Assembly: GCF_025699485.1 (NCBI RefSeq)
Contig: NZ_JANUXN010000003.1
Coordinates: 186,001 to 250,000 of the forward strand
DNA length: 64,000 nt
Reading direction: 5' to 3'
Origin: Thauera carbonicopians
GTDB lineage: Bacteria; Pseudomonadota; Gammaproteobacteria; Burkholderiales; Rhodocyclaceae
In this document: piece by piece, positions 7,584-36,864 of the stretch
How the letters are laid out: every line of letters starts with the position of its first letter
Position numbering within the stretch: the stretch's first letter is position 1
Translations under genes and position numbers: made by a program
Notes under the pieces: model-generated
The model's input: only the letters and a program-made list of their open reading frames with translations
Told to the model about the DNA's origin: nothing
Database searches by the model: none

Positions 7584-9650
7584 TTGTTCTTTCGCCATCC
7601 TGTTCAGACTGCAGCCTCGGGCTTCGGCACCTTCGTCGTGTCCGTCGCTGCCAGCTGTGCATGGGCGGCGGATGCCTTCTTCGACGACGTGCCGATCGTC
7701 CTGACCGCGTCGCGCATGGCGCAGTCGCCGGTGGATGCACCGGTCGCGGTGACGCTGATCGACCGTGAGATGATCGAAGCCTCGGGCTTCACCGAAATCC
7801 ACGAGCTGATGCGCCTGGTGCCGGGCTTTCTTGTTGCCGACTGGCCGGACGGCTCGCCGGTGGTGGCCAACCATGGCATGAGCGACGCCTATGATCGCCG
7901 CATCAAGGTGATGATCGATGGGCGGACAGTCAATAGCCCGGCGTGGGGCAATACCAACTGGCATGACCTGCCGCTGCGGGTCGACGACATCGAGCGCATC
8001 GAGGTCGTGCGCGGTCCCAATGGCGCGGCCTATGGCGTCAATGCCCTCAACGGGGTCATCAACATCATCACCCGCTCGCCGGCGACCGAGAGCGGCGTGG
8101 CGGTGATCTCGCGGATCGGCGACGATGGTTTCCACGACCACGGCTTCCGCATCAACGGCGATGCCGATGCGGCCATCGACTGGCGGTTGTCGGGTTCGCA
8201 CCGGCGCGCGGTGAACTTCCGCCCCCATCGGAACGAGGATGGTGAGCTGGAGGCGCGCAAGATCGTCGAGCGCTCGGTGCTCAATTTCGGCGCCACGGCG
8301 CAGTTGTCCACGCAGGACGAACTGCAATGGATGCTGGGCCTCAGCCGCGGCAGCACCGACCGCGGGGCGCCGGGCAACCTGGAACATCCGCTGCGCGAGG
8401 ACGATACCCATGCGCACTATGCGCATCTGGGCTGGAAGCGCAGCTTCGCGGTCGATTCCGAGCTGTCCGTGCAGTTCCACCATCAGCGCGAGCGCACGCG
8501 TGTGCCCTGGCAGGTCGCGGCGCCCGGGCTGGGCGTGTTGTCCGTGGACATGGACAGCGACGTGCAGCGGGAGGAACTCGAAGTGCAGTACGGTGCAAGG
8601 CTGTCACCGGCCTGGCGCTTCATGCTCGGTGCGGGGGTGCGCCGTGAGGCGGCGCGCTCGCGGTCGATGTTCGATACCGGCGGCACGATCAGCGGCGTCA
8701 GCAGCCAGTTGTTCGGCAGCGTGGTGTGGTCGCCGGTCGAGCGCCTGCGGGTCGATCTGGGCGGTACGCTGGAAGAGCATCACTACAGCGGTTCGTTGTT
8801 CTCGCCGCGGCTGGCGCTCGGCTATGCGCTGACGCCCGATTCGGCGCTGCGCTTCTCGGCCGGAGTGTCGTACCGGACGCCTTCGCTGGTCGAGTCCCAT
8901 GCGATGCAGGTGATCCGCGTCGGCCCGGAGATCAAGCGGATCGGTGCCTGGGCAGGCGCGGACACCCAGCCGGAGCGGGTGAGGCATGCCGAGTTGGGCT
9001 ATGCGGCGATGTTCCAGGATCTGGGGCTGGGCGTGGATGTGCGGGCCTTCTACCAGGAATATGACGACTATATCGATGACGAGCGCTGCTGGTATCCATT
9101 GAAGCCCTGGGAAAGGCCGCCGAGGGATTCAGCCTGGGCGTGTCCGACGCCGCCGGCGGATTTCGCGCCGATCGAATGGGACTGGCAGGCCAGCCGGGGC
9201 CCGAGTTCCTTCGTGTTCCGGAACGTCGGCAGCTTCCGCGTCACCGGCGGCGAGTTCAGCATCGACTGGCGCCGGCCCGGCTGGGGCCGGGTCGTGTTGT
9301 CGCAGGCCGTCATCGATGTCGATGTTCATGGCAGCAGCGTCGACGAGGATTTCGCGACCAGCGCGCCGAGCTCGATCACTTCGCTGCTGCTGATCAAGGA
9401 GCTGCCGGGGCGCTGGCGCGCCAGCCTGGGCTATTACCGGCATTCGTCGATGAACTGGCTCAACGACGGCGACCGCGTGCCCGAGCAGGATCGCGTCGAC
9501 CTGAAGCTGTCGCGCCGCTTCGGCGGCGCCAATTCGGGCAACGAAGTGGCTTTGGTGGCGCAGAGCGTGGGTGGGCGATACGCGGATTTCCATGCCGGAC
9601 GCTATCGCCGCGAGCCCCAGCTGTTCGGCAGTCTGCGCCTGACGTGGTAG
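7584..9650 (+). CDS. TonB-dependent outer membrane receptor
   Basis: This protein of about 688 residues is a TonB-dependent receptor. A signal peptide ends near CAWA-AD (about residue 29). The plug domain holds VVANHGMSD, the arm VMIDGRTVNSP, and VRGPNGAAYGVNALNGVINIIT, and is followed by a beta-barrel ending in FGSLRLTW with an aromatic C-terminus. The start is a TTG eight bases after GGAG; no ATG in this frame gives a signal peptide. It is the first gene of an operon with a binding protein and a diguanylate cyclase. The ligand is unknown; the association suggests sensing as well as uptake. Confidence 0.88.
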   Translation: MFFRHPVQTAASGFGTFVVSVAASCAWAADAFFDDVPIVLTASRMAQSPVDAPVAVTLIDREMIEASGFTEIHELMRLVPGFLVADWPDGSPVVANHGMSDAYDRRIKVMIDGRTVNSPAWGNTNWHDLPLRVDDIERIEVVRGPNGAAYGVNALNGVINIITRSPATESGVAVISRIGDDGFHDHGFRINGDADAAIDWRLSGSHRRAVNFRPHRNEDGELEARKIVERSVLNFGATAQLSTQDELQWMLGLSRGSTDRGAPGNLEHPLREDDTHAHYAHLGWKRSFAVDSELSVQFHHQRERTRVPWQVAAPGLGVLSVDMDSDVQREELEVQYGARLSPAWRFMLGAGVRREAARSRSMFDTGGTISGVSSQLFGSVVWSPVERLRVDLGGTLEEHHYSGSLFSPRLALGYALTPDSALRFSAGVSYRTPSLVESHAMQVIRVGPEIKRIGAWAGADTQPERVRHAELGYAAMFQDLGLGVDVRAFYQEYDDYIDDERCWYPLKPWERPPRDSAWACPTPPADFAPIEWDWQASRGPSSFVFRNVGSFRVTGGEFSIDWRRPGWGRVVLSQAVIDVDVHGSSVDEDFATSAPSSITSLLLIKELPGRWRASLGYYRHSSMNWLNDGDRVPEQDRVDLKLSRRFGGANSGNEVALVAQSVGGRYADFHAGRYRREPQLFGSLRLTW

Positions 9651-31509: not shown

Positions 31510-31624
31510 CAGGCACGCGGTAGCGACGCGCACAGACAGGCACGCGCCGAACGCTGGTGCCGCCGTTGCAGGGCGGAGGGGGCGGTTCCATAATCATCGC
31601 CTTTCTTTCCGTACACGCCTGATC

Positions 31625-33142
<1,518 letters not shown>

Positions 33143-33162: not shown

Positions 33163-33229
33163 TGTCCAGAATCGTGGACGCACCGGATTATAGTGTACAG
33201 AAAAATGGACATGTCTTGAATTCAGGACC
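33163..33229 (+). promoter_or_regulatory. Three tandem dyads: upstream activating sequences
   Basis: Three inverted repeats share the form TGTCCA-N6-TGGACA. They are TGTCCA-gaatcg-TGGACG (33163-33180), TGTACA-gaaaaa-TGGACA (33194-33211) and the weaker TGTCTT-gaattc-AGGACC (33212-33229). They start 21 bp after the activator gene and lie 137-203 bp upstream of the sigma-54 promoter, the usual distance for an enhancer-binding protein. An AT-rich stretch between them (33262-33303) could bend for contact. Confidence 0.7.
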
Positions 33230-33365
33230 ATTCCGCCATGCATGGATGATGCGGATCCATTCATGACGAAAGAGAATAAACAGATTCGATAATCCAATAA
33301 ATGTGCGGCTTTGCACGCACATCATGCCCCCTCCTGGTGCATCGGCACGTGCCTGCCCGTCAGGC

Positions 33366-33381
33366 TGGCACGTGCCTTGCG
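33366..33381 (+). promoter_or_regulatory. Sigma-54 (-24/-12) promoter
   Basis: TGGCACGTGCCTTGCG matches the RpoN consensus TGGCACG-N4-TTGC exactly, including GG/GC spacing. It lies 64 bp before the permease start codon and downstream of the dyad cluster. Confidence 0.88.
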
Positions 33382-33444
33382 AAGGCTGCGGCACTGCGGC
33401 CGCGGCCGTGGCCTACATCCAAAACCACCAGGAGGAGAAGCCCC

Positions 33445-34833
33445 ATGGGCACCCTAGGCATTCTGTTGTCTCTCGTACTGCTGATGTATCTCGCCTACCG
33501 CGGCCTCAGCGTGCTGCTGCTGGCGCCGCTGCTGGCGCTGCTGGCCGTGCTGATGTCGGGCGAGGCCGCGCTGCTGCTGCCGACCTACACCCAGGTCTTC
33601 ATGAAGGCGATGGGCGGCTACGTGATCCAGTTCTTTCCGCTGTTCCTGCTCGGTGCGCTGTTCGGCAAGCTGATGGACGACTCCGGCTCGGCGCGTGCGA
33701 TCGCCCATGCCATCGTCGCCAAGGTCGGCAGCGAACGGGCGATCCTCGCCATCGTGCTCGCCTGCGGCATCCTGACCTATGGCGGCGTGTCCTTGTTCGT
33801 CGTCGCCTTCGCCGTCTATCCGATCGGCGCCGCGCTGTTCCGCGAGGCGGGCATTCCGAAGCGGCTGATCCCGGCGGCGATCGCGCTCGGCTCCTTCACC
33901 TTCACGATGACCGCGCTGCCGGGCACGCCGGCGATCCAGAACGCCATCCCCGCTCCCTTCTTCGGCACCGATTCCTTCGCCGCGCCCGGCCTCGGCCTGA
34001 TCGGCGGCGTGATCATGTTCGTGCTCGGCTCGTGGTGGCTGAGCGGCCAGGCGCGCAAGCTGATGGCCGCCGGTGAAGGCTACGGCCAGCATTCGGGCGA
34101 GCCCGAAGGCGGCGACGACCGCCCGCTGCCCGGCTTCTGGCTGGCGTTGCTGCCGATCCTCGTCGTGATCTGCCTGAACTTCCTGATGGCCAAGCAGGTG
34201 CTGCCCGGCATGGACACCAGCTATCTGGCCAGGCCCGAGTTCGGCGGCCTGCAGGATGCGCGCTCGCTGATCGGCATCTGGTCGATCATCGTCGCGCTCG
34301 CCGCCGCCGTGATGCTGCTGGTGCTGATGCACTGGAAGCGATGGGCCAACCTGATGAAGACCGTCAACGAAGGCTCCTTCGGCTCGATGCTGCCGATCCT
34401 CAATACCGCGACCGAAGTCGGCTACGGCACCGTGATCGCCTCGCTGGCCGGTTTCGTCATCATCCGCGACCTGGTGCTCGGCATCGCGCCGGGCAATCCG
34501 CTGATCTCCGAGGCGGTGGCGGTCAACGTGCTGGCCGGCATCACCGGTTCGGCCTCCGGCGGCATGTCGATCGCGCTGCAGACGCTGGGCGCGGAGTATC
34601 TCGCCATGGCCAATGCCGCCGGCATCAGCCCGGAACTGCTGCACCGCGTCGCGGCGATGGCTTCCGGCTGCATGGACACGCTGCCGCACAACGGCGCGGT
34701 GATCTCGCTGCTCGCCATCTGCAGGCTCACCCACCGCGAATCCTACGGCCACATCTTCATGAGCGTGGTGGTGTTCCCGCTCATGGCGCTGGCCGTCGTG
34801 ATCACGCTCGGCACCCTGTTCGGCAGCTTCTGA
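33445..34833 (+). CDS. GntP-family permease
   Basis: This 462-residue inner-membrane protein has about 12 hydrophobic segments and the GntP/ion-transporter signatures GGYVIQFFPLFLLGALFG, TYGGVSLFVVAFAVYPI and TALPGTPAIQNAIP. GntP members take up gluconate or related hydroxy-acids, and relatives next to CoA-transferases handle 3-hydroxybutyrate-type substrates. A strong GGAGGAG ribosome binding site precedes the ATG. The sigma-54 promoter upstream and the CoA-transferase 24 bp downstream point to uptake of a short hydroxy- or keto-acid. Confidence 0.9.
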   Translation: MGTLGILLSLVLLMYLAYRGLSVLLLAPLLALLAVLMSGEAALLLPTYTQVFMKAMGGYVIQFFPLFLLGALFGKLMDDSGSARAIAHAIVAKVGSERAILAIVLACGILTYGGVSLFVVAFAVYPIGAALFREAGIPKRLIPAAIALGSFTFTMTALPGTPAIQNAIPAPFFGTDSFAAPGLGLIGGVIMFVLGSWWLSGQARKLMAAGEGYGQHSGEPEGGDDRPLPGFWLALLPILVVICLNFLMAKQVLPGMDTSYLARPEFGGLQDARSLIGIWSIIVALAAAVMLLVLMHWKRWANLMKTVNEGSFGSMLPILNTATEVGYGTVIASLAGFVIIRDLVLGIAPGNPLISEAVAVNVLAGITGSASGGMSIALQTLGAEYLAMANAAGISPELLHRVAAMASGCMDTLPHNGAVISLLAICRLTHRESYGHIFMSVVVFPLMALAVVITLGTLFGSF

Positions 34834-34857
34834 TCCCATCCGCGGAGGAGACGAGAC

Positions 34858-36864
34858 ATGTCCATCGTTCGCCACCCCATGGCGGCTTCACTGCGGGCTT
34901 CCGATACCGGCAAGCTGGTTTCAGCCCGCGAGGCGGTACGCCTGATCCGCTCGGGCGACACGATCGCCACCGGCGGCTTCGTCGGCATCGGCTTTCCGGA
35001 AAGCATCGCCATCGCGCTGGAGCAGCGCTTTCTCGAAAGCGAGGCCGCCGACGGCGCCGGCCACGGCGGGCCGCGCAATCTCACGCTGGTCTATGCCGCC
35101 GGCCAGGGCGACGGCAGGGAGCGCGGCCTCAACCACCTCGGCCACGAAGGGCTGGTCGGCAGCGTCGTCGGCGGCCACTGGGGGCTGGTGCCCAAGCTGC
35201 AGCGGCTCGCGGTCGACAACCGCATCGAGGCCTGGAACCTGCCCCAGGGCGTCATCTCGCACCTGTTCCGCGACATCGCCGCCGGCAAGCCCGGCACGCT
35301 GACGCGGGTCGGGCTGGGGACGTTCGTCGATCCGCGCTTCGGCGGCGGCCGGCTCAACCAGCGCACCACCGCCGAGCGCGTGCGCCTGCTCGAGATCGAT
35401 GGCGAGGAATACCTGTTCTACAAGGCCTTCCCGATCCACGTCGGCATCATCCGCGGCACCACCGCCGATGCCGACGGCAACATCACGATGGAAAAGGAGG
35501 CGCTGACGCTGGAGGCGCGTGCCATCGCGATGGCCGCGCGCAATTCCGGCGGCATCGTCATCTCCCAGGTCGAGCGCGTCGCCGAGCGCGGCTCGCTGAA
35601 CCCGCGCCAGGTGCAGGTGCCCGGCGTGCTGGTCGATTGCGTGGTGGTCGCGGAGCGGCCGGAGCACCACATGCAGACCTACAGCGAGCAATACAACCCC
35701 GCGTTTTCCGGCGAACTCCGCGTGCCGATGTCGGCGATCGCCGGCATGGGCATGAGCGAGCGCAAGATCATCGCCCGCCGCGCGGCGATGGAGCTGCAGG
35801 CCGACGCGGTGGTGAACCTGGGCATCGGCATGCCCGAAGGCGTGGCCAGCGTCGCCGCCGAGGAGCAGGTCATCGACCTGCTCACGCTCACCGCCGAGCC
35901 CGGCGTGATCGGCGGCATTCCGGCCGGCGGGCTGAGCTTCGGCGCGGCGGTCAATACCCAGGCGATCATCGACCAGCCCAGCCAGTTCGACTTCTACGAC
36001 GGCGGCGGGCTGGACATCGCCTTTCTCGGCCTGGCGCAGGCCGACCGCGAAGGCAATCTCAACGTCTCGCGCTTCGGTTCGCGGCTGGCCGGCGCGGGCG
36101 GTTTCATCAACATCTCGCAGAACGCCAAGAAGGTGGTCTTCGTCGGCACCTTCACCGCCGGTGCGCTGCAGGTGGCGGTGGAGGACGGCCGCCTGCGCAT
36201 CGCGCAGGAGGGCAGCGCGCGGAAGTTCGTCGCCGAAGTCGAGCACCGCACCTTCAGCGGCCCGCAGGCGGTCAAGTGGCAGCAGGACGTGCTCTACGTC
36301 ACCGAGCGCTGCGTGTTCCGGCTGTGCGCGGAAGGGCTGGAGCTGATCGAGATCGCGCCCGGCGTGGACCTGCAGCGCGACATCCTCGCCCACATGGACT
36401 TCGCCCCGGTCATCAAGCGCCCGCCGGCGCTGATGGATGCGCGCATCTTCGCCGACGAGGCGATGGGCCTGCGGCGGGACCTGCTCGAGATTCCGCTCGA
36501 GCAGCGCCTGTCCTACGACGCCGAGCAGGAACTGTTCTTCGTGAACTTCGAAGGCCTCGCGGTGCGTACCGAAGCCGACATCGCCCGCATCGAGCGCGCG
36601 GTCGAGGCCGCGCTTGCCGCGGTGGGGCGGCACGTCGATGCGATCGTCAACTACGACCGCTTCTCCATCGTGCCCGAGCTCGTCGACGCCTACGTCGGCA
36701 TGGTCAAGGGCCTGATGGCGCGCCACTACCGCTCGGTGACGCGCTACACCGCGAACAGCTTCCTGCGCATGAAGCTCGGCGAGGCGATGGAGAAGCACCA
36801 GATCGCGCCGCACATCTACGGCAGCGCCGCGGAGGCGCAGGACCGCGTTCGCGGCGGCAACTGA
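34858..36864 (+). CDS. Acyl-CoA:acetate/3-ketoacid CoA-transferase (long form)
   Basis: This 668-residue protein fuses the alpha and beta CoA-transferase domains, like YdiF/propionate CoA-transferase. The alpha part has [17 protein letters not shown]. The beta part has [11 protein letters not shown], then [19 protein letters not shown], near the usual catalytic region. It is about 140 residues longer than the common 520-residue form. The extra C-terminal domain (from about residue 530) includes [12 protein letters not shown] and [13 protein letters not shown] and is not recognised. It would activate the imported acid with CoA. GGAGGAG-like sequence precedes the start. Confidence 0.88.

Follow-up and report, generated by a model that had tools for sequence, protein, structure and literature searches.

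A putative HbcR-like sigma-54 circuit with three conserved dyads ahead of a permease and CoA-transferase operon in Thauera

A 64-kb stretch of DNA (hereafter the window, meaning the whole stretch analysed) from a 4.52 Mb genome of the genus Thauera (G000), near T. butanivorans (L001; regulator 97% identical), was analysed for a sigma-54 regulatory circuit. The gene for a sigma-54 enhancer-binding protein (EBP) is followed by three dyads at 33163-33229, a sigma-54 promoter, a permease gene and a coenzyme A (CoA)-transferase gene, in this order. The arrangement very probably represents a local one-component sigma-54 circuit of the HbcR-like type, in which the EBP would drive the permease and CoA-transferase genes in response to a ligand most likely belonging to the 3-hydroxybutyrate/acetoacetate class. 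In the proposed mechanism, this short-chain hydroxy- or keto-acid would be bound by the PAS domain of the EBP. Dimers of its Fis-type helix-turn-helix (HTH) domain would occupy the three 18-bp dyads, whose half-site is TGTCCAGAA, directly past the end of the EBP's own gene, and the AAA+ domains would assemble, loop approximately 140 bp of DNA and open the promoter. Uptake of the acid by the permease and its conversion to the CoA-ester by the transferase would follow.

Dyad 1 (TGTCCAGAATCGTGGACG, 33163-33180) and dyad 2 (TGTACAGAAAAATGGACA, 33194-33211) were found by direct reading and by motif search, and each carries one mismatch to the 12 defined positions of TGTCCA-N6-TGGACA. Dyad 3 (TGTCTTGAATTCAGGACC, 33212-33229) abuts dyad 2; with four mismatches it falls under the cut-off of the window motif scan and was found by direct reading. 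A preliminary description of this DNA had assigned all three to this form, which none of them matches perfectly; its distances to the promoter (203 bp counted from where dyad 1 starts, 137 bp from where dyad 3 ends) were correct. The promoter (TGGCACGTGCCTTGCG, 33366-33381, forward strand) is, as described, an exact RpoN site with zero mismatches to TGGCACG-N4-TTGC, and is the sole such match in the window. Transcription would be expected to start near 33391, and the permease operon is predicted to depend on RpoN. At up to one mismatch, the window contains three dyad sites (the third at 8539, elsewhere) versus an average of 0.043 over 300 dinucleotide shuffles, and a pair of such dyads within 60 bp occurred in none of the 300. 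The exact promoter arose in 22 of these shuffles. Dyad 3 alone is not significant; it is supported by its spacing, which is conserved in relatives. The dyads and the promoter are thereby confirmed as a real observation.

The region is covered in eight distinct Thauera-clade loci (the window, L001, L002, L003, L004, L006, L119 and L120); a ninth, L005, ends inside the EBP gene. Offsets were taken from the window and then applied to all eight loci. The alignment is gapless from dyad 1 to dyad 3, and therefore the spacing 0/+31/+49 is kept in all of them; the aligned promoter lies 199-203 bp past the start of dyad 1, again in 8/8 loci. An unguided scan allowing up to three mismatches detected dyad 3 in L002 and L004 only, because it has four mismatches in the six other loci. 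The divergence of dyad 3, suggested earlier as something that may set cooperativity, is seen in these six; in L004 dyad 3 matches better than dyad 2. Leaving out L001 as near-identical to the window, the remaining seven loci gave the symmetric half-site TGTCCAGAA, which is strongest at positions 3-5. A comparable array was found in another family (L270, genome G942), where the EBP, permease and CoA-transferase are 70%, 84% and 65% identical to those of the window. Its three dyads (3, 2 and 2 mismatches) stand at -169/-138/-119 from a promoter-like site, with spacings of 31 and 19 (0/+31/+50). Two dyads, built of TGTCCG half-sites and set 21 bp apart, are present in three other Thauera (L124, L125, L126), where their starts lie 104 and 83 bp ahead of the promoter. 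Since these use a proximal pair, the window clade represents a distal three-dyad variant.

The EBP family extends well beyond this clade. Matches to the N-terminus were obtained in 103 of 395 genomes of the taxonomic family; the genus gave 14 of 29, and a class sample 11 of 369 (own genome included). From these, 81 distinct loci were assembled: 69 of 116 family places, 11 genus or class places, the window and the loci of near relatives, with duplicates removed. A promoter-like site, defined as a score of at least 12.5 on the consensus, was present within 300 bp behind the EBP gene in 70 of the 81, compared to 5/81 for EBP coding stretches and 5/81 for the reverse strand. A CoA-transferase gene lies within 4.5 kb in 63/81 loci and a permease homologue in 40/81. 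The exact core TGTC-N10-GACA occurs at 56 sites in 40 of the 70 promoter-bearing loci, while spacers of 4-9 and 11-16 yield 0-2 sites each. With up to one mismatch, 106 sites in 58/70 loci were counted, versus 3.8 on average and at most 11 in 100 shuffles. The sensor domain was also detected in 34 of 398 genomes of a phylum sample, 3 of 40 of an order sample and 10 of 337 of a class sample around genome G915. In several members from these added samples, a GntP-like permease or a TRAP transporter adjoins the EBP. Genes for 3-hydroxybutyrate dehydrogenase (L266, L273, L274, L280) and acetoacetate-CoA ligase (L276, L280) adjoin it as well, all over curated cut-offs. The three dyads are thus kept at one spacing in the eight clade loci and also occur in L270, dyads of this type stand at the target promoters of the two further orthologues described below, and TGTC-N10-GACA recurs across the wider family. 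A lack of conservation at orthologous loci, which would have refuted the preliminary interpretation, was not observed; that interpretation is supported, and with it the suggestion that the dyad is a candidate operator.

Dyads stand before other genes in L274 and L275, the orthologues next in similarity (EBP 68-69% identical). Neither a permease nor a CoA-transferase of the window kind is present at these two loci. Their TRAP operons are each preceded by three dyads, at 142/122/81 bp (L274) and 145/124/81 bp (L275) from a promoter-like site, and their 3-hydroxybutyrate dehydrogenase genes by two, at 116 and 167 bp and at 116 and 166 bp, respectively. In L275 two further dyads (149 and 98 bp) precede an OprD-like porin gene. 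The dehydrogenase of L274 exceeds the curated cut-offs and shares 82% identity with its counterpart in L275. The control regions, which were selected after the dyads were seen, hold 4/6 (L274) and 6/8 (L275) of the sites with up to two mismatches while making up 359 of 14,001 and 515 of 16,109 bases. An apparent lack of an operator at L231 and L234 was ruled out: that first scan covered only the region behind the EBP gene with the TGTC/GACA core, and the longer stretches L275 and L274 have dyads before other promoters. Taken together, this suggests that the dyads follow the regulator rather than one gene neighbourhood, and it points to 3-hydroxybutyrate-class acids.

The EBP gene (31625-33142, forward strand) codes for 505 amino acids and ends 20 bp before dyad 1, and not 21 bp as given before; its position just ahead of the dyads is as described. 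Pfam profiles define an N-terminal PAS domain (PAS_4, 23.1 bits at a cut-off of 23.1), a sigma-54 AAA+ domain (Sigma54_activat, PF00158, 222 bits) and a Fis-type HTH (HTH_8, PF02954, 39.4 bits, cut-off 22) with the recognition helix SRAGLYAKL. The translation shows a Walker A motif (GETGTGKE) and a GAYTGA loop. An AAA+ domain with Walker A and a GAFTGA-type loop together with a Fis-type HTH identify the protein as a bacterial sigma-54 EBP, and it is predicted to activate the -24/-12 promoter. Its PAS domain matches the structure of the cytoplasmic PAS of CitA (8bjp, E 1.5e-11), and the HTH aligns weakly with the structures of NtrC4, ZraR, a TyrR homologue and Fis. It stays below the NCBIfam cut-offs for AtoC (287.5 versus 714), PrpR (280.4 versus 499.2) and NifA (305.7 versus 528.85).

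One-component sigma-54 activators that control a local operon are a kind of system already known. A close example is HbcR (PA2005) of Pseudomonas aeruginosa and P. fluorescens, a sigma-54 activator with an N-terminal PAS domain and (R)-3-hydroxybutyrate as signal (PMC10482368, PMC8694187); PA2005 is listed as HbcR with a PAS domain (PMC8694187). The window shares with it a PAS-AAA-Fis EBP beside a GntP-type permease, but its operon has a CoA-transferase and no 3-hydroxybutyrate dehydrogenase, which is found at L274 and L275. Some relatives carry the set of EBP, GntP-like permease, 3-hydroxybutyrate dehydrogenase and acetoacetate-CoA ligase, which corresponds to the gene content of HbcR loci, and these presumably carry hbcR itself. 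Their EBPs are approximately 48-50% identical to that of the window, and their operator is of the TGTCTC type as opposed to TGTCCA. In a quick tree with midpoint root, the window EBP belongs to a clade of 11 rows (support 100), apart from the clade with lysine or arginine in the recognition helix that includes the HbcR-type members. Because of this separation the window EBP is called HbcR-like, and not HbcR.

Further likenesses were found to other known systems. In E. coli, the sigma-54 activator AtoC adjoins the short-chain acid CoA-transferase operon atoDAEB, as the EBP does here; AtoC is however a two-component response regulator, and the score of the window EBP is far from its model. The upstream activator sequence of NifA, TGT-N10-ACA, is likewise a palindromic enhancer for a sigma-54 activator, but TGT and ACA are separated by 12 bases in the window dyads and by 10 for NifA, whose model cut-off the EBP does not reach. 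TyrR has a Fis-type HTH, as has the window EBP. The TyrR box, TGTAAA-N6-TTTACA (PMC4894688), is an 18-bp dyad with TGT...ACA ends as well; bases 4-6 and the class of regulator differ. The same paper describes three tandem 18-bp dyads upstream of a sigma-54 promoter in P. aeruginosa, each bound by GcsR (PMC4894688). GcsR, unlike the window EBP, is a TyrR-like regulator of glycine cleavage with the site TGTAACG-N4-CGTTCCG. In the literature searched (open-licence PMC articles only), neither the operator and its family nor the distal triple array or the pairing of helix and base treated below were found described.

Several results weigh against a local HbcR-like circuit. Eleven of the 81 loci have no promoter by the score used, 12 of the 70 promoter-bearing loci have no dyad at up to one mismatch, and some family members adjoin unrelated transporters (L155, by eye). 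The retrospective choice of the control regions in L274 and L275 counts here as well. A 3-hydroxybutyrate dehydrogenase query returned nothing in the window at E 1e-10, so that the operon has no counterpart of the dehydrogenase apparently controlled by the orthologues. Finally, the only rpoN gene of the genome is interrupted, which may leave the circuit silent here.

The interruption of rpoN gives the strongest alternative. One PF04552 match was found in the genome (G000:C33:463603-464064, locus L292, outside the window), with one in-frame TAA inside the DNA-binding domain and rpoN-like sequence on both sides. Fourteen of the 28 other Thauera genomes were searched, giving one match each and no stop (0/14). 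Either the function of sigma-54 was recently lost in this strain or a base was called wrongly. In the former case the circuit would be a relic, with rpoN truly lost and the operon silent or transcribed from another promoter. This has a real chance of being correct, even if we consider it somewhat the less probable outcome: the single rpoN with its stop in the DNA-binding domain speaks for it, but the stop may also stem from a single base wrongly sequenced or assembled. In addition, no stop is present in any of the 16 EBP-type stretches that were matched in the genome (the last one a weak match), and since operator and promoter are intact too, any loss must be recent. The parts of what had been called a complete circuit and their conservation are well established; its completeness in the source genome is doubtful. 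Any experiment on rpoN in this strain is directly affected by the interrupted gene. If real, the interruption offers a natural test of what becomes of some 15 sigma-54 activator genes once their sigma factor is gone.

A local EBP circuit could also exist as described with another acid as ligand, such as propionate, butyrate or another substrate of YdiF-type enzymes. The permease (462 amino acids, 33445-34833, forward strand) belongs to the GntP permease family (PF02447, 37.6 bits versus a cut-off of 22.5), with scores far from the NCBIfam gluconate permease GntP models (29.7 versus 647 and 23.3 versus 292.75). The CoA-transferase (668 amino acids, 34858-36864, forward strand) has CoA_trans domains (PF01144, 119.3 bits) and a near full-length match to the structure of E. 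coli YdiF (2ahu, E 1.7e-138 over residues 20-538), which makes it a YdiF-type enzyme. The functions assigned in the preliminary description to the two genes downstream of the promoter therefore hold at the family level. YdiF-type enzymes take several short-chain acids, and this breadth together with the missing dehydrogenase gene leaves some room for a different acid. We consider it rather unlikely, as the dyads are found again ahead of a 3-hydroxybutyrate dehydrogenase gene in orthologues whose EBPs are 68-69% identical to that of the window, and the PAS core is conserved across the EBP family. A 3-hydroxybutyrate-class ligand is preferred because it is these genes that the orthologues with the same dyads appear to control.

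It is highly improbable that the dyads bind another regulator, be it a repressor or a different activator, and that the adjacent EBP acts elsewhere. Binding of the EBP to the dyads is what we infer, and the promoter-bearing loci in which no dyad was found would agree with a separate regulator. Dyads, however, are found with EBPs of the family across two classes and many genera, they move with the regulated genes in L274 and L275, and base 6 of the half-site varies with the recognition helix of the EBP itself. The last point was obtained from an operator table to which the phylum, order and class (G915) samples contributed 28, 2 and 10 loci. Rows lacking a promoter call were represented by the 400 bp upstream of the PAS match; L189 was dropped (no helix match), and the dyads of L274 and L275 stand outside the counts. 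A dyad with up to one mismatch is present in 96 of the 119 rows. Recognition helices include SRAALYEKI, GRATLYKKI and others besides the SRAGLYAKL of the window. Glutamate at helix residue 7 goes with G at base 6 in 152/186 half-sites, lysine or arginine with C in 84/102, alanine with A or T in 32/40 and aspartate with T in 10/14. The coincidence of chance dyads with a chance promoter, to which the four mismatches of dyad 3 and the exact promoters in shuffled DNA might lend some colour, can practically be dismissed in view of the dyad pair never reproduced by shuffling and the fixed spacing in relatives.

The pairing of residue 7 with base 6 is suggestive, a lead that is phylogenetically underpowered. 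The residue class changes only nine times on the tree (rows with dyads), with three independent pairs on supported branches (six on all branches), too few for significance to be reached. The clade with SRATFYKKL is mixed, with C and G at base 6. A helix-residue code regarded as proven was ruled out by these few changes and independent pairs. Arg427 is among the residues reported as critical for LuxO (PMC11407668); by our own matching of positions it would be equivalent to helix residue 7. With slightly less than even confidence, it is proposed that throughout a widespread family of HbcR-like activators the single residue 7 of the nine-residue stretch xRxxxYxxx reads base 6 of the half-site TGTCYN (E:G; K/R:C; A:A/T; D:T), so that operators could be predicted from the protein. 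According to the same proposal, the window clade combines an alanine reader with a distal triple array (0/+31/+49) instead of a proximal pair 21 bp apart, an array that may have outlived its sigma factor in this strain. Such a one-residue, one-base prediction is directly testable by a binding assay. Many sigma-54 activators in genomes lack a known operator or ligand; for one large family of the one-component kind, the comparative data supply an operator and a tie to the use of 3-hydroxybutyrate and short-chain acids.

Evidence for a wider regulon was sought in the own genome, which has 17 dyad sites with up to one mismatch (two being the window dyads) versus six in a reversed-pattern control. 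Thirteen of the 15 others were read (two, on C46 and C47, have no locus and were left unread), and none of these lies in a plausible sigma-54 control region. A filter demanding a promoter score of at least 13 in suitable orientation within 200 bp was passed by L228 and L214. L228 falls within a ParA-like reading frame (by eye). L214 has the one perfect dyad, and this falls within a Type ISP restriction-modification gene; both were rejected as chance matches in coding sequence.

Between dyads and promoter, the eight-locus alignment revealed an AT-rich block conserved in the Thauera clade (33275-33301). An IHF site in this block was rejected as unsupported, since 79 to 193 of 200 shuffles did at least as well as the best match to the IHF consensus in 7/8 loci; the match in L006 is borderline, equalled by 11/200. 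An inverted repeat at 33345-33376, formed by two copies of GGCACGTGCC, extends over the -24 element; it is present in the window and partly in L001, and absent from the other six aligned loci. For the permease, the ATG at 33445 is conserved in the alignment and has a ribosome-binding site near 33430, while the listed open reading frame from 33301 would include the promoter.

The CoA-transferase has approximately 130 extra C-terminal residues past the YdiF match (36475-36861). No Pfam match was obtained for this extension and a single-sequence AlphaFold model of it was poor (pLDDT 53). Many homologue alignments span it. In L138, L135 and L177, a small open reading frame that resembles a universal stress protein by eye separates the EBP and CoA-transferase genes. 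At G364:C10:276529-276681, approximately 0.7 kb upstream of the full gene, residues 1-51 of the EBP N-terminus occur a second time as a fragment (69% identical), indicating a partial duplication. Directly upstream of the EBP gene in the window, a sigma-70-like sequence, TTGCAG-N17-CATAAT, was noticed by eye at 31566-31594.

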